Of a stretch of 42,845 nt of DNA, positions 10,867 through 41,211 are shown one piece after another. The DNA comes from an uncultured Clostridia bacterium (GTDB taxonomy: Bacteria > Bacillota > Clostridia > Christensenellales > UBA3700), in NCBI GenBank assembly GCA_944381275.1, contig CALWKO010000011.1, forward strand, positions 1 through 42,845, given 5' to 3'. A program made the translations under genes and the position numbers. Position 1 is the stretch's first letter, and each line of letters begins with the position of its first letter. Below the pieces are notes generated by a model. The model was not told the origin of the DNA, did no database searches, and saw only the letters and a program-made list of their open reading frames with translations.

Positions 10867-11108
10867 AACATATATAAAGGCTATGAACGGGAGCAGTATT
10901 GCGAAAGTCGGGCAGCAGAGAGCCGCCGTATGGTGAAAGGCGGACGAAGGCGCGCAAGAACCTCGCCCGGGAGCCGTGCGGGTGATATGTAATCCGCAAC
11001 GTCGGGAGCGTTATATCCCCAAAAGGCATCCGCGCAATACTAGGGCGGGTGTGAATAAGAGTGGTACCACGGCAATTACTTTCGTCTCTTTGGGGCGGAA
11101 GTTTTTTT
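10867..11108 (+). promoter_or_regulatory. T-box leader of leuA (probable CUC leucine specifier)
   Basis: The leader holds the conserved T-box AGAGTGGTACCACGGC (11058-11073), which pairs with the acceptor end of uncharged tRNA. Stem I features include AGCAGAGAGCCGCCGTATGG and, at the end of stem I, GAACCTCGCCCGGGAG, in which CTC at 10962-10964 is the best specifier codon, a Leu codon. Downstream is a terminator: stem 11078-11086 with 11093-11101 (including G-T pairs) followed by seven Ts. Low charged tRNA-Leu should stabilise the antiterminator and switch leuA on. The specifier is inferred from position, not from a computed fold. Confidence 0.88.
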
Positions 11109-11134: not shown

Positions 11135-12799
11135 ATGAAGAACGTGGAAAAATACGGCAAAAGGTATTTCCTGCCGCCGCAGCCGTGCTTTGATTGGGTG
11201 AAGAAAGATTATGTCGATCATGCGCCCATATGGTGCAGCGTGGACTTGCGCGACGGCAATCAGGCGCTTATCGTGCCTATGAGCTTAGAGCAGAAATTGG
11301 AGTTCTTCTCGCTACTTTGCAAGATAGGATTTAAGGAGATAGAAATAGGCTTCCCCGCCGCGAGCGAAACGGAGTTCGAATTTTGCCGCGCGCTCATCGA
11401 GCGCAACCTCATCCCGGAGGACGTCACCATTCAGGTACTTACGCAATCGCGCGAGCATATAATAAAAAAGACGTTTGCCGCGCTCAAGGGCGCAAAAAGG
11501 GCGGTGGTGCACCTGTATAATTCCACGTCCGTGGCTCAGCGCAAGCAGGTGTTCCGCAAGGAAAAGCCGCAGATAATCGACATCGCCGTCACGGGCGCAA
11601 AACTGCTCATGAAGGAGGCGGAGGAAACTCCGGGCAACTTCACCTTTGAATACTCGCCCGAAAGTTTCACGGGTACGGAACCTGAATTCGCGCTGGAAAT
11701 ATGCAACGCCGTGCTCGACGTCTGGAAGCCCAACCCCGAGCGCAAGGTGATAATCAACCTGCCCGTAACGGTGGAAGAGAGCATGCCGCACGTCTACGCC
11801 CAGCAGGTGGAATATATGTGCAAGAACATGAAATACAGGGAAAACGTGATAGTTTCCACCCACCCGCACAACGACAGGGGCTGCGCGGTGGCGGACGCGG
11901 AATTCGCCCTGCTTGCGGGAGCGGACAGGGTAGAGGGCACGCTGTTCGGCAACGGCGAGCGCACGGGCAACGTGGACATCGTCACCTTGGCGCTGAACAT
12001 GTTCTCCCAGGGTGTGGACCCCGGGCTGGACTTCACCAATATGCCTTACCTTGTGGAAGAGTACGAAAAATTCACCGATATGAAGGTAAATCCCCGTCAG
12101 CCTTACGGCGGCGCGCTCGTGTTCGCGGCGTTCTCCGGTTCTCACCAGGACGCGATCGCCAAGGGCATGAAATATCACGAAGAAAAGGAAAAGGACAGGT
12201 GGAGCGTGCCCTATCTGCCCATCGACCCCAAGGACGTGGGCAGGCAGTACGACGGCGACGTCATCCGTATCAACAGCCAGTCGGGCAAGGGCGGCATAGG
12301 CTACCTGCTCGAAACGCGCTACGGCATCAATCTGCCCGCCAAGATGCGTGAAGATTTGGGCTATAAGGTGAAATCGGTCTCCGACCACAGGCACAAGGAA
12401 CTGCTCCCGGACGAGGTGAAGGAGATATTCGAAAAAGAGTACGTCAACCTCACTTCCCCCCTCAAAGTGCTTGAGCATCACTACAAGCAGGTGGACGGCA
12501 ACATCGACGCCACCGTCACCGTGCAATTCAACGGCGAAGTAAAGGAGCTGGAGGGCTTCGGCAACGGGCGCCTCAATGCGGTGAACGAGGCAATCAAGGG
12601 CATAATCCCCTTCGATTACCACATCGAAACATACCAAGAGCACGCCTTAACGCGCACTTCCAAATCGCTCGCGGTGTCCTATGTGGCGCTGCAAAAGGAG
12701 GGCGAAGATAAGCTCATCTGGGGCGCGGGCGTGCACAGCGACATAATCGTGGCTTCGGTCAACGCACTCGTCAGCGCGCTCGATAATATGCTGAAATAG
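11135..12799 (+). CDS. leuA: 2-isopropylmalate synthase (LeuA, long type 2 form)
   Basis: A 554-aa enzyme joining acetyl-CoA and 2-ketoisovalerate, the first committed step of leucine synthesis. The TIM-barrel domain (about 30-310) has WCSVDLRDGNQALIVPMS with the metal-binding Asp, IEIGFPAASETEFEF, THPHNDRGCAVADAE with the His pair, and GNGERTGNVDIVTLAL. The residues PRQPYGGALVFAAFSGSHQD and the C-terminal regulatory domain (about 420-554, ending VASVNALVSALDNML) mark the longer LeuA type 2 seen in yeast and Corynebacterium. The start follows AAGGAGG. It is controlled by a leucine-type T-box. No other leu genes are in the window. Confidence 0.96.
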   Translation: MKNVEKYGKRYFLPPQPCFDWVKKDYVDHAPIWCSVDLRDGNQALIVPMSLEQKLEFFSLLCKIGFKEIEIGFPAASETEFEFCRALIERNLIPEDVTIQVLTQSREHIIKKTFAALKGAKRAVVHLYNSTSVAQRKQVFRKEKPQIIDIAVTGAKLLMKEAEETPGNFTFEYSPESFTGTEPEFALEICNAVLDVWKPNPERKVIINLPVTVEESMPHVYAQQVEYMCKNMKYRENVIVSTHPHNDRGCAVADAEFALLAGADRVEGTLFGNGERTGNVDIVTLALNMFSQGVDPGLDFTNMPYLVEEYEKFTDMKVNPRQPYGGALVFAAFSGSHQDAIAKGMKYHEEKEKDRWSVPYLPIDPKDVGRQYDGDVIRINSQSGKGGIGYLLETRYGINLPAKMREDLGYKVKSVSDHRHKELLPDEVKEIFEKEYVNLTSPLKVLEHHYKQVDGNIDATVTVQFNGEVKELEGFGNGRLNAVNEAIKGIIPFDYHIETYQEHALTRTSKSLAVSYVALQKEGEDKLIWGAGVHSDIIVASVNALVSALDNMLK

Positions 12800-21727: not shown

Positions 21728-22585
21728 ATGGATATAAAGGATAAGAACATCTTGATAATAGGCTTGGGCGTCGTGGGCGGTTCATACGCCATGGCGCTCA
21801 CCGGGGCGGGCTACAAAAACATATATGCCGTGAACAGGAGCGAGGGCTCGATAAAAAAGGCTCTCGGCCTCGGCATAATAAAGGGCGGCAGCACCAATGT
21901 GGAAGACTTCGCCCGCAATGCCGACATCGCCGTCATCGCCGTATATCCCACCGGTGCGGAGGACTGCGCCCGCAAGCTGGGCTCGCTCATGAAGAAGGGC
22001 AGCCTCGTCACCGACGTGCTCGGCATCAAGCGTTACTATTCTCAAAAAATATCCGCCGTCCTTCCCGACTACATCGACTACGTCCCCGCTCACCCCATGG
22101 CGGGCAGGGAAAAGCGCGGCTTGGACTATGCCTCCGCTCAAGTCTTGAAGGGCGCGAACTTCATCATCACCCCCATCGCCCGCTCCACCGAGCAGGGCAT
22201 TTGTGAGGTGAAACAGCTCGCCGAGGACATGGGCTTCGGCAAGATCCGCACTCTCACCCCCGACGAGCACGACAGCGTGATCGCTTACACTTCCCAGCTT
22301 CCCCACGCTCTCGCCGTTTCCCTCATCAACAGCGACGAAGAAGATTCAAACACGGGCGACTTTATAGGCGACAGTTTCCGCGATCTCACCCGCATCGCCG
22401 AAATCAATGCCGACCTTTGGCAGGAACTCTTCCTCGGCAACCGTGAAAACCTGCTCGCGGCGATAGATATGTTCACCGATCAGCTCTCCGCCATCCGCAG
22501 CGCCATCCAATCGGAGGACAAGGAAAGCCTAATCAAACTCTTCGAAAAATCCTCCGCCCGCCGCCACGCCCTAATCAAAAAATAG
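21728..22585 (+). CDS. tyrA: Prephenate dehydrogenase
   Basis: A 285-aa NAD(P)-dependent enzyme oxidising prephenate to 4-hydroxyphenylpyruvate for tyrosine synthesis. The Rossmann motif is LIIGLGVVGGSYAMAL; the substrate-binding part shows VPAHPMAGREKRGLDYA with the catalytic-region His, and DEHDSVIAYTSQLPHALAVS with the second conserved His. There is no C-terminal ACT domain, so Tyr feedback through ACT is not expected. It is the last gene of the operon, 47 bp after aroQ with GGGGTAAG before the ATG. No terminator hairpin with T-tract is evident after it. Confidence 0.95.
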   Translation: MDIKDKNILIIGLGVVGGSYAMALTGAGYKNIYAVNRSEGSIKKALGLGIIKGGSTNVEDFARNADIAVIAVYPTGAEDCARKLGSLMKKGSLVTDVLGIKRYYSQKISAVLPDYIDYVPAHPMAGREKRGLDYASAQVLKGANFIITPIARSTEQGICEVKQLAEDMGFGKIRTLTPDEHDSVIAYTSQLPHALAVSLINSDEEDSNTGDFIGDSFRDLTRIAEINADLWQELFLGNRENLLAAIDMFTDQLSAIRSAIQSEDKESLIKLFEKSSARRHALIKK

Positions 22586-22611: not shown

Positions 22612-23640
22612 ATCGAGGTATATGCCGCGTACCTCAAATATTGTGCCGCGCATTTTATTAAGCAAATCGAGGGACGCAATGTATACCTCAAAACACGTGA
22701 TACCGCCCACTATGTAACGAAAAAAATGCCATATGTGTTGTTGAAAATTAATCGGTGCGCAAAAAATATGTTTTGATAAATATTTTTAATCACATCTCAC
22801 GAGGTATTATACATCGGATACCTCAAACAATAATATCTCATTTTATAAAACCAATCGAGATATACTACGCATACCGCAATATTACTTACGCCTATAAAGT
22901 TATAGAGGTACGGAAAATGTACCTCGAATAATATTCCCATATCATTCTTAAAAAAGGCTCCTTCCAATTGTTTTGCCGACGATAAAATTATGTGTACAGC
23001 ACATAATTTCGGCTGATTTAATATTGAATGTTAAATTGGATGGAAGCAAGATTGTTGCGTAATCTCATTCCTTTTACAAGCAGAGCAGTGCCAATCGAGG
23101 TACGGAAAACGTACCTCGCCCGCAAAACTCAACCTAGGTATTCAAAAGATACTTAGCTAAAGAGAGATAGTTAGGTATCCAAAAGATACTTAGAAAAAGA
23201 GGGTATGTCCGCTTTTGTGGACAGATTCCAAGCCAAGCGGGATAAAGTAGGGGGCGAGCGGCAAGAGTCGCTCCAAGTAATCGAGGTACGGAAAACGTAC
23301 CTCACGCACAAATAATAATCGAAGTACGGAAAACGCACCTCGCGCACAAAAACCAATCGAGGTACGGAAAACGTACCTAGCGCCACAATACTTGTCTTTT
23401 AATAATGCGGTGTGTTTCCCTTGCTTGATAAAATAAAAATATGTGTACAGCACATAATTTCACTTGAACTACTTCGGTGGCAGTAATCGAGGTACGGAAA
23501 ACGTACCTCGTGCCACAACTCCCATATCTTTAATAATGCGGTATATTTCCCTTGCTTGATAAAATCAAAATATGTGTACAGCACATAATTTCACTTGAAC
23601 TACTTCGGCGGCAGTAATCGAGGTACGGAAAACGTACCTC
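22612..23640. repeat. Array of at least 13 short palindromic (REP-like) hairpins
   Basis: The best copies read AATC, stem GAGGTACG, loop GAAAA, stem CGTACCTC, then G-C-rich sequence and ACAA. Exact or near-exact copies are at 23097-23117, 23283-23303, 23321-23341, 23359-23379, 23489-23509 and 23620-23640; one with an ATG-containing loop is at 22905-22925. Diverged relatives keep GAGGTA...TACCTC at 22615-22635, 22669-22689, 22801-22824 and 22857-22877, and CTAGGTAT...ATACTTAG types lie at 23134-23156 and 23171-23193. Substitutions in one arm are often matched in the other, which points to selection for the fold. Spacing is irregular, both orientations are equivalent, and no cas or transposase gene is near. 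Confidence 0.8.
22985..23009. repeat. Palindrome family TATGTGTACAGCACATA (first of four copies)
   Basis: AAATTATGTG, loop TACAG, CACATAATTT forms a 10-bp stem. Further copies are at 23440-23456, 23571-23587 and 23702-23718. The first and last copies are also the starts of a longer direct repeat: about 57 bp from 22991 and from 23704, similar at roughly 85 percent, both running through TTAAATTGGA. Confidence 0.75.
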
Positions 23641-23721
23641 GCGCCACAATATTTGTACTGTTAATAATGCGGCGTATTTCCCTTGCTTGATAAAATCAAA
23701 ATATGTGTACAGCACATATTT
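23401..23721. repeat. 131-bp tandem repeat, about 2.5 units
   Basis: Units begin with AATAATGCGG at 23401, 23532 and 23663, exactly 131 bp apart. The first two complete units share all but a few bases; the third is cut off after about 59 bp where it merges into the 57-bp repeat. Each complete unit contains one TATGTGTACAGCACATA palindrome and one GAGGTACG hairpin. Short minus-strand ORFs of about 60 codons recur in each unit but are by-products of the repeat. Confidence 0.9.
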
Positions 23722-23808
23722 TCGACCGATTTAACATCCAACATTAAATTGGACGAAGTTTGGCTGTCAAAACTTCCTTCGCTTTTCAATACGGGAAAAG
23801 TTCATCGA

Positions 23809-23872
23809 GGAATAAAGAATATGCTTCACAGGGTGATAAAGGAATAAAAAATATACTTCACAGGATGGGTAA
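23809..23872. repeat. Two tandem 32-bp repeats
   Basis: GGAATAAA...TTCACAGG units at 23809-23840 and 23841-23872 match at most positions. They close the repetitive tract just before the spoVA promoter. Confidence 0.7.
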
Positions 23873-23882
23873 GGTTAAGTTT

Positions 23883-23916: not shown

Positions 23917-24015
23917 ATGAGAAAAACGGATATTCAGCCCGCCGCCGTGCGCGGCAAAAATCCCGAGGACAGGGAAGAGCGCTATAAGCCGCCGCTCATC
24001 AAGGAGAGCCGATGA
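23917..24015 (+). CDS. Possible 32-aa ORF translationally coupled to spoVAC
   Basis: A short frame with coding-like base use (codons rich in G or C at position 3) starting MRKTDIQPAAVRGKN and ending PPLIKESR, hydrophilic and basic. Its TGA overlaps the spoVAC ATG (ATGA), as in coupled genes, and AAGGAG near its end serves spoVAC. It has no ribosome site of its own, and the predicted sigma-G start point falls on its ATG, so it would have to be translated as a leaderless message. I do not recognise the product. It may be a genuine small spore protein, a coupling leader peptide, or chance. Confidence 0.4.
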   Translation: MRKTDIQPAAVRGKNPEDREERYKPPLIKESR

Positions 24016-24458
24016 TGGACGGAGGCGATTATTGTAAGTATGTGTCTAAAACAGCGCCCAGGACGAGCGAACTTAAAACATTGCTCGCGGCGTTCTGCGT
24101 GGGCGGTGTGATATGCATGATAGGTCAGGGCTTTACTGACCTATACACCTATTTATTGCCGGATGCGGAGGAGAGTATGCTCGGCGCGCTCACGTCTATG
24201 ACGATGATTTTTATCGGCGCATTGCTCACCGGGTTCGGAATTTACGACAAGATAGGCAGCATTGCGGGCGCGGGAAGCATTGTGCCCATCACCGGCTTTG
24301 CAAATTCCATCGCGTCGCCCGCCATGGAGTTCAGGAAAGAAGGGATAATCTTCGGACTTATGGCAAAGATGTTTGTAATTGCCGGTCCCGTCATAGTCAC
24401 GGGCGTGGTATCTTCGGTAATCGTGGGGATAATTTACCGCATTATCGCAATCGTATAA
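24012..24458 (+). CDS. spoVAC: Stage V sporulation protein AC (SpoVAC)
   Basis: A 148-aa membrane protein, part of the SpoVA channel that loads dipicolinic acid into the forespore and releases it at germination; SpoVAC itself behaves as a mechanosensitive channel in B. subtilis. After the polar N-terminus (YCKYVSKTAPRTSELK) come hydrophobic helices with FCVGGVICMIGQGF, ALLTGFGIYDKIGSIAGAGS and the strongly conserved IVPITGFANSIASPAMEF. Length is as in Bacillus. AAGGAG precedes the ATG. Expression in the forespore is expected. Confidence 0.96.
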   Translation: MMDGGDYCKYVSKTAPRTSELKTLLAAFCVGGVICMIGQGFTDLYTYLLPDAEESMLGALTSMTMIFIGALLTGFGIYDKIGSIAGAGSIVPITGFANSIASPAMEFRKEGIIFGLMAKMFVIAGPVIVTGVVSSVIVGIIYRIIAIV

Positions 24459-38067: not shown

Positions 38068-41000
38068 ATGGCAGCAAAAAAGAAGGGTGAAATGGTAAAG
38101 AATGAGCGGACCGCGGAGCAACCCGCGGCCGTTTTGCCGCCCGAAGAGCTTGCCGCGGATAAGGCAGAGGAAACTTTTGTGCAGGAAGCACCCGCAAAGC
38201 GCGGGAAGAAGGCCGCATGGGAAGAAAAGCCGGAGGAGATAAGGGAGCTCCCCTCGGCGGAAGAAAAGCCGCAGTCGCAGCAGGAGCCCCAAGAACAAGA
38301 GCAGTCCGCCGGGCAGGACGAAGCCCCCAAGCCCAAGAAAAAGCGCGGCAAAAAGAAGGCGCAGGAAGAGCCCCTTCCCAAGGAGGAAGAATTTGCGGCG
38401 GAACAGCCCGCGGCGGAAGAAGTCGCAGCGGAAGAGGTAAAGCCGCAAGAGGAGCTCCAAGCGCAACAGCAGCCCGCCAGGCAGGACGAAGCCCCCAAGC
38501 CCAAGAAAAAGCGCGGCAGAAATAAGGCGCAGGAAGAGCCCCTTCCCAAGGAAGAAGAATCCGCGGCAGAACAGCCAGCGGCGGAGCAGGCGGCAGCGGA
38601 AGAGGCAAAGCCGCAAGAATCCGCACCTCAAGAGCCCGCCGAGATTGCGGCGGACGAAGATCCTTCGTCACAAGAAAAGGGTAAAAAGCGCGGCCGCTTC
38701 GGTAAAAAGAAGAAGGAAGTAAAGGTGTTCGACTATCCGCTCGAGAGGGTGGAAGCCGCTCCCGACCAAGGACTTTCCGAAGAGCAGGCGCAGGAGCGCA
38801 TGGATCGCGGCTTGAACAACGAACAGCCCAACATCGTCACAAAATCTTACTTGAATATATTCCGTTTAAACGTCATCACTCTGTTTAACGGCTTGAACTT
38901 CCTGCTGGCGGCGCTCATTTTGGTGTACGGCAGCATAAAGAACATGACCTTTATCATATTGGTCATATGCAATATGGTGGTGGGCATAGTGCAGGAGATC
39001 CGCTCCAAACTCGTTTTGGAAAAGATGTCCTTGCTCAACGTGCCCAAAGTCAGCGTTATCCGCGGCGGTGAGAAAAAACAGGTGGATATGTCCGATATCG
39101 TCATCGACGATATAATCGAGATCCACGCCGGCGAGCAAATAGCTTCCGACAGCGTCGTAGTCAGCGGCGAGTGCGAAGTTAACGAAAGCATGCTCACGGG
39201 CGAGCAGGACGACATCCACAAAACGGCGGGCGCGGAGCTTCTTTCCGGCAGTATAGTGCAGGCGGGCACTTGCCGTGCGCGCGTTGTCAAGGTGGGTAAG
39301 GACAACTTTGCGTCCACCATCCTTACCGAAGCCAAGAAGTATAAAAAGTCCAAATCGCAGCTCATGCGCTCGATAAATTGGATAATCAGGATAGTTACCA
39401 TAGCCATCTTCCCCATGGGCATACTCATGTATCTCACAAACTGTGCGGACAGGGGGATAGGCTACCTTGATATGTTCAACATCACCTCGAGCGACATGGC
39501 GGAAAAAGTGAGCTCGGTGATAACCAACTCCGTCGCCTCCGTGGTGGGCATGATCCCTGAAGGACTCGTGATGATGACGTCCATCGCCCTTGCCGTGGGC
39601 GTTATCAAACTTGCGCGCAAGCAAACGCTCGTGCAAGATCTATATTCGATAGAAACGCTCGCCCGCGTGGATATGCTCTGCCTGGATAAGACGGGCACCA
39701 TAACCGAAGGCAGTATGCAGGTGGAGCGCGTGCATCAATACACCGATAAGTTAGGTTCGATAACGGACATAATGACGAGCATGGTCGCGGCGCTGGGCGC
39801 AAGCGGTTCCACATTCGAAGCGTTCGCCGATTATTTCAAGGGCGAAAATGTGTGGAGTCACATCTCCACCGTTCCCTTCTCATCCTCGCGCAAGTGGAGC
39901 GGGGCGGACTTCGGCGACAAGGGCAGGTTTATCGTGGGCGCGCCCGAATTCGTGCTCAAGGAGCGTTACTCGCTCGTGCAAAAGGATGTGGAAAATTACA
40001 CCAAGCAGGGCTATCGCGTCCTTCTTTTGGTATATTCTTCTCAACCTATAAAGGAGAACGTGCGGGAAGACAAGCTCAAGCCCGTTGCGCTCATCATCCT
40101 CTCCGACAAGATAAGGGCGAGCGCAAATTCCACCCTGCAATACTTCGCCGACCAGGGCGTGGAGATAAAAATCATCTCCGGCGACAACCCCATCACCGTA
40201 TCCAAGGTGGCGGAGCGCGCGGGCGTCAAGGGGTACGACAGCTATATCGACGCCACCACGTTAAAGACGGAAGAAGAAGTGCTCGCCGCCTGCGATAAGT
40301 ACACCATCTTCGGCAGGGTGACCCCCAAGCAGAAGAAGATACTCGTGCAGGGCTTGAAAGCCAAGGGGCACACCGTGGGCATGACGGGTGACGGCGTAAA
40401 CGACGTTATGGCGCTCAAGGAAGCGGACTGCTCCATAGCTATGGCGTCTGGCAGTGAAGCGGCGCGCAACGTGGCTCAGCTCGTGCTAATGAACAGCGAC
40501 TTTGCCTCTCTGCCCAGCGTGGTTTTGGAAGGCAGAAGGGTAATAAACAACATAGAAAGGGTGGCGTCGCTCTTCCTGGTAAAGACGACGTTCAGCACTC
40601 TGCTCACCCTTATGTGCATCATCTTGCAGACGTCCTATCCCTTCGTGCCCATCCAGCTCACCCTCATCAGCGCGCTGTTTGTGGGCATCCCGTCCTTCTT
40701 CCTCGCCCTCGAACCCAACGGCAGGAAGGTGGAAGGCAACTTCCTGAGCAAGGTGTTTTCAAAGGCTCTGCCGGCGGGCATGACCATAACGCTGATGGTC
40801 ACCATCGCCTGCGTGCTATACAGGGATATAGGGCTGGACGTTTCGGCGCAGATAGCCACAATGGCATTCTTCATCACAGCGCTTTCGTCGCTTATAGTAC
40901 TGCTTCAAGCGTGCTATCCGTATACAAAGCTGAGGCTGCTCATCATCGGTTTTGCCTTGGTGGTGCTCATCTTCGCCGTGAGTGTGGATTGGACGAGGGA

Positions 41001-41211
41001 GTTCTTCTCCATTACCTCGCTCACGTCCGATATGTTGAAGAATTTGATAATTATGATGGTCTGCGTCCCGCCGTGCATACTGTTCATGCGTGCGGAAGTG
41101 GGCGCGATACGCGAGCTGTATAGGACGATAAAGCGCTTCTTTATCAACGTATACACTTGGATAAAAAATACCGCAAATAAGTTCATCGGGAGTATAAAGA
41201 AGAACAAATGA
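38068..41211 (+). CDS. HAD-IC P-type ATPase (CtpE-like cation pump) with long charged N-terminal extension
   Basis: A 1047-aa pump. The conserved part begins near residue 237 ([20 protein letters not shown]), first membrane helix near 267. Motifs: actuator TGEQ (about 377-380, where TGES is usual), [15 protein letters not shown] in the membrane, phosphorylation site [11 protein letters not shown] (Asp540), nucleotide-domain segments and the hinge [20 protein letters not shown]. The nearest known type is CtpE, a calcium-related pump in mycobacteria; the ion is unproven. Residues 1-225 are disordered Lys/Glu/Pro/Ala-rich sequence containing two 56-residue repeats. There is no ribosome site at the first ATG; a second ATG at 38092 follows AAGGGTGAA and may be used. 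Confidence 0.9.
38314..38649 (+). repeat. 168-bp in-frame tandem repeat (2 units) in the ATPase N-terminus
   Basis: Units 38314-38481 and 38482-38649 both encode [12 protein letters not shown], then [12 protein letters not shown] and an Ala/Glu/Gln-rich stretch. The second half is more diverged. A third partial echo, [12 protein letters not shown], follows. Confidence 0.85.

Follow-up and report, generated by a model that had tools for sequence, protein, structure and literature searches.

Palindromic repeats in bacterial genomes are usually attributed to RAYT transposases. The BIMEs and REP/REPIN elements of Gammaproteobacteria, like the arrays described here, are short, imperfect, extragenic palindromes that occur in many copies, form families at the species level and are found in mosaic clusters and tandem arrays with common flanks. 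By definition, the hairpins of REP/RAYT elements have a GT[AG]G tetranucleotide on the 5' side of their foot, at a distance of 0-2 nt (PMC6006769). Such systems also comprise one TnpA-REP (RAYT) gene in single copy, as a rule with its REPs on either side. MITEs are also non-coding, repeated and of inverted-repeat structure, and lack an enzyme of their own; our arrays differ from them in that direct tandem organisation dominates and in that neither a parent transposon (by PF01797 matches and the flanking genes scanned) nor terminal inverted repeats were found, in intergenic DNA too diverged for target duplications to be read. The repetitive hairpin elements of mitochondrial intergenic DNA, for example the sponge RHE (PMC2800124), resemble ours in being hairpin families that differ between relatives and have no known enzyme, whereas our arrays lie on a bacterial chromosome, are larger and are regularly tandem. 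CRISPR arrays share with ours a small palindrome in direct repeats with short DNA between, but in our arrays the intervening DNA is itself repeated. A literature search for bacterial hairpin satellites of such a kind returned no direct precedent among the papers searched.

Results

The stretch of DNA analysed here (henceforth the window; 42,845 nucleotides) is one contig (C11) of the assembly of a gut bacterium (G000; 1.80 Mb, 95 contigs, 76% complete), whose closest named relative is Candidatus Alloclostridium intestinigallinarum (G002), a chicken-gut Clostridia MAG that is 98% complete. The genus comparison comprised six genomes, our own and five congeners (including G002, G003, G004 and G005). 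Gene order from tyrA to spoVAC is retained in all six, and the gap between the two genes measures 1,427 bp in our genome; four congeners have 425, 397, 217 and 216 bp there, and G005 has 2,190 bp with an inserted gene. As originally noted, at least 13 hairpins are packed into gene-free DNA: all 13 were located in 22,615-23,640 (Table 1), and no plausible gene lies over the tract, where the one open reading frame, of 87 aa, was judged to be due to chance. The pattern GAGGTAC-N7-GTACCTC, allowing ≤3 mismatches, has nine matches in the window, every one in the tract, whereas shuffled sequences have 0.62 on average and never more than 3, and the single-stranded unit has a folding energy of -10.4 kcal/mol (z -5.6). 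The common flanks that had been described are also present, with AATC before and GCGC..ACAA after the hairpins. A second palindrome, AAATATGTGTACAGCACATAATTT (GTGTACAGCACAT), overlooked earlier, has four copies in the tract (at 22986, 23437, 23568 and 23699), and a third hairpin family (TTAGGTATCCAAAAGATACTTA) gives 14 strand-wise matches in our genome and none in the five congeners at the stringency applied.

Table 1. Features of the tyrA-spoVAC interval (window coordinates); the 13 hairpin starts are the first positions of the hairpin rows or are given in brackets
Feature	Positions	Strand	Remark
prephenate dehydrogenase (tyrA)	21728..22585	+	left flank of tract; retained in 6/6 genus genomes
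hairpin, T/C mixed subtype GAGGTATATGCCGCGTACCTC	22615..22635	+	starts 30 bp past tyrA stop
diverged hairpin GAGGGACGCAATGTATACCTC	22669..22689	+	
hairpin GAGGTATTATACATCGGATACCTC, longer loop	22801..22824	+	read from sequence
diverged hairpin GAGATATACTACGCATACCGC	22857..22877	+	
hairpin GAGGTACGGAAAATGTACCTC	22905..22925	+	
second palindrome AATTATGTGTACAGCACATAATTT	22986..23009	no strand	
consensus hairpin GAGGTACGGAAAACGTACCTC	23097..23117	+	
two third-family hairpins (C/T)TAGGTAT(T/C)CAAAAGATACTTAG (23134, 23171)	23134..23193	+	
three hairpins, 38-bp tandem (23283, 23321, 23359)	23283..23379	+	
131-bp tandem composite, 2.8 copies	23355..23723	+	each copy = consensus hairpin + GTGTACAGCACAT palindrome (palindromes: 23437, 23568, 23699)
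consensus hairpin	23489..23509	+	
consensus hairpin	23620..23640	+	
32-bp direct repeat, two copies (AGGAATAAAGAATATGCTTCACAGGGTGATAA)	23808..23871	+	
SpoVAC	24012..24458	+	right flank of tract; retained in 6/6 genus genomes

Directly upstream of spoVAC, and overlapping it, lies a 32-aa open frame (MRKTDIQPAAVRGKNPEDREERYKPPLIKESR; 23917-24015, +). Each of the five congeners has an equivalent frame in this position (44-88% identity), which makes it a conserved small protein of the spoVA operon that may have escaped annotation. Elsewhere in the window we noted a T-box leader (RF00230, 109.7 bits; 10874-11092, +) upstream of a 554-aa ORF at 11135, and a tandem duplication of 168 bp, an in-frame length (2.0 copies, 89%; 38282-38618), inside a 1,047-aa ORF (38068-41211).

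A search of our whole genome with the hairpin consensus revealed a repeat family. The core motif at ≤3 mismatches gave 76 strand-wise matches as opposed to 0 for the reversed control, and a looser form gave 68 sites as opposed to 1. At least 70 (about 70-80) hairpin copies are distributed over eight or nine arrays in unrelated slots, on contigs C7, C9 (two units), C10, C11, C25 (two places), C33, C61 and C71. The statement that none of the hairpins occurs elsewhere is thus correct for the window and incorrect for the genome, and a local duplication without a family can be dismissed. Among the matches listed, a covariance model of the unit found no convincing site outside the arrays in our genome. 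The copy number is probably an underestimate, because several arrays touch or adjoin contig ends (the right end of C7, the starts of C61 and C71, and near the ends of C25 and C33). Wherever orientation can be told, units are direct and head-to-tail within arrays, with tandem periods of 38, 131 and 275 bp. A loop inversion relative to the flanks in the C25 array, first taken as an inversion event, was set aside; given the symmetry of the whole palindrome (AATCGAGG..CCTCGATT), flank orientation in that array is ambiguous. Further dispersed repeat families were seen near the GTGTACAGCACAT palindrome on C75 (L070), where they include TTAGGTATCCAAAAGATACTTA repeats, and on C88 (L071); these two contigs have one stretch in common, and an ORF on C88 resembles a DNA polymerase sliding clamp.

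The DNA between the hairpins bears on how the arrays grew. Linkers are more similar within arrays (0.29) than between them (0.11; p≤0.001), and most arrays contain the linker GCGCACAAAAACCAATC or one much like it, with an ancestral unit of ~38 bp that reads AATC-GAGGTACGGAAAACGTACCTC-GCGCACAAAAACC. Arrays at unrelated slots have blocks of 50-250 bp or more in common; the tract and the C33 array, for example, share a block of 245 bp at 88%. That linkers are homogenised within arrays yet derive from one ancestral 38-bp unit indicates that units were amplified locally and were also copied from slot to slot. The possibility that these are CRISPR arrays was rejected, since the DNA between the hairpins consists of repeated linkers, made uniform within each array, and not of unique spacers, and cas genes are absent among the flanking genes scanned.

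It had been suggested that the hairpin arms coevolve, with diverged copies continuing to pair. Base pairs were counted over 47 distinct units and eight stem pairs. The six outer pairs (1-6) vary, yet show zero compensatory double changes: one-sided changes in them break the pair or yield G-U and are left uncompensated. Cells with double changes number 10 at pair 7 and 6 at pair 8, the innermost pairs, and the total of 16 compares with 6.4 in shuffles. Since pairs 1-6 contribute nothing, the excess comes from the inner stem only, and it counts few events because it largely reflects two subtypes, C (GTACG/CGTAC) and T (GTATA/TATAC), which the covariation at pairs 7-8 mostly separates. Coevolution as a general feature of the arms is thus mostly wrong, although it holds for the innermost two pairs; the arms are conserved as sequence. 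A conserved structured RNA, in which covariation would extend across the helix, fits poorly with a stem that has no double change in six of its eight pairs, and Rfam searches (whole window at gathering threshold, tract at E≤1) gave chance matches only for the tract. The outer six arm bases are near-invariant as sequence and the hairpins are clustered at few sites, as a protein-binding platform with sites of the nucleoid, segregation or phage-decoy type would have them. We regard such a platform as very improbable: loop and spacing are variable, and the motif is wholly absent from close sisters, which have a different motif or none, whereas a site serving chromosome biology would be expected to persist.

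The hairpin motif is absent from four of the five congeners, and the fifth (G004) has one convincing, terminator-like singleton, which, among the matches listed for the covariance model, was also the one convincing site in any of the congeners. No ortholog of the gene beside it was found in our own assembly (76% complete). Single T-subtype hairpins occur in our species, with one in G004, while the C-subtype unit is abundant in our species only. The array sequence of the tract has no match in the sampled congener DNA (~1.3 Mb) or in 400 kb of our own background, unlike the adjoining 125 bp upstream of spoVAC, which match three congeners at 67-85%; the C25 gap is without an array in G002, G003 and G004. 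The motif has no match in phage and plasmid records, and the exact core has none in genome_contigs, a collection from which records near our own may be left out. One IMG/VR pattern match, in a GC-rich contig without an array, was taken as chance.

The G004 singleton (CAATCGAGGTATCCGGCAGATACCTCGATTTTTTT) sits just past a gene end, and the tract itself begins 30 bp past the end of tyrA, a position at which an ordinary terminator is found in three relatives; two units are terminator-like by score, on the minus strand. The ancestral singleton might have been an intrinsic terminator whose duplication gave rise to arrays that insulate genes or stabilise mRNA at RNA 3' ends. However, the three terminator-like sites in the tract barely exceed the 1.7 (sd 1.2) found in shuffles and are antisense to both flanking genes, most units have no T run, and some arrays lie upstream of genes (HxlR in C10 and C33). 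We therefore consider a terminator origin quite unlikely.

A de novo scan for hairpin arrays across the genus detected arrays in our genome and in G002, and not much in the sampled DNA of the four remaining congeners; over these congeners and five further genera, it made few calls, mostly of three copies. In one different genus (G007; L213:60-720), about four tandem copies of a ~175-bp unit with CGAACCACG..CGTGGTTCG hairpins lie at a contig start near tRNA-like genes and look different from our arrays. The G002 arrays consist of an unrelated hairpin, CTTGTCAAGTAGTACCTGACAAG, with a 50-bp period, 146 matches in that genome and 0 in the other five genomes of the genus. Two slots that hold our arrays, the gap between the SIR2-like and pseudouridine-synthase genes and the one downstream of the YccF gene, hold CTTGTCAAGTAGTACCTGACAAG arrays in G002. 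On these sequences, the array-growing habit persists between the sister species while the hairpin sequence is replaced. Slots with arrays in both species number two of the seven compared, in excess of random placement (expected coincidence ~0.1, a rough estimate that takes the number of clusters as about 20 and that of gaps as 1,700).

The remark that no mobilising enzyme is encoded beside the hairpins is supported: none was found among the flanking genes scanned, and Y1 transposases (PF01797) have no match in our 76%-complete genome. The flanking genes scanned beside arrays of our species and G002 are ordinary and include no recombinase; one G002 array adjoins a phage portal gene. The single Y1 gene of G002 is of IS200 type, is interrupted by a stop codon and lies in an isolated IS200-like context, and G003 has four PF01797 matches. 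The likeness to REP or MITE families that had been proposed holds insofar as this is a real REP/MITE/BIME-like family, repetitive, extragenic and palindromic, but membership in the REP/RAYT group (BIME, REPIN) does not. The absence of the GTAG foot was correctly noted: where GT[AG]G would be expected, the foot of nearly all units reads AATC (or GATT on the opposite strand), and the units are direct and head-to-tail instead of forming the inverted two-REP mobile unit. Our units also lie nearly all in a few islands, unlike the hundreds of dispersed singlets of BIMEs and REP/REPIN elements.

A Y1 (HUH) tyrosine transposase that mobilises the hairpins in trans, as in a REP/RAYT system of unusual sequence, would account for small, imperfect, extragenic palindromes in many species-specific copies, and the tandem clusters resemble those reported for REPINs (PMC3116915); our genome, moreover, is just 76% complete. 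We nevertheless judge it unlikely, given the foot and the direct units, the lack of a PF01797 match in our genome, the one stop-interrupted IS200-type copy in a 98%-complete G002 with its 146 hairpin matches, and the four PF01797 matches of G003 without comparable arrays in the 200 kb sampled.

Discussion

The tract is probably a BIME-like mosaic palindromic satellite with fast turnover at the species level, for which selfish or neutral amplification is favoured. On balance, we read it as part of a 'hairpin satellite', a mosaic family of palindromic repeats that is specific to this species and occupies about nine islands between genes; its units would grow by slippage or recombination, spread between islands, be mainly selfish or neutral, and be replaced as species diverge. 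The T-subtype would be the older form. Units may have multiplied locally by slippage or unequal recombination at the hairpins during replication, and may have reached other islands through ectopic recombination, template switching or a trans-acting enzyme. Most of the array DNA would be selfish or neutral, would be tolerated in the space between genes, and would be replaced wholesale by other hairpin families during species divergence. Set against this reading, the dispersal of units to several slots requires a copying route that we only infer, no precise insertion with a target duplication was seen in intergenic DNA this diverged, the conservation of 6 bp in the arms could point to recognition of their sequence, and the slots with arrays in both species hint at slot preference or function. 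It is possible, though doubtful, that a mobilising or copying activity common to the genus and not bound to any one sequence has time and again started new hairpin families at favoured slots, giving each species its own satellite in partly overlapping places.

Such hairpin islands break assemblies, which should serve as a warning. Two sister species each have a large hairpin-array family unrelated to that of the other, some of the slots being common to both, and with no intact RAYT-type transposase detected; how satellite-like DNA of bacteria spreads and turns over thus becomes testable within a small genus.
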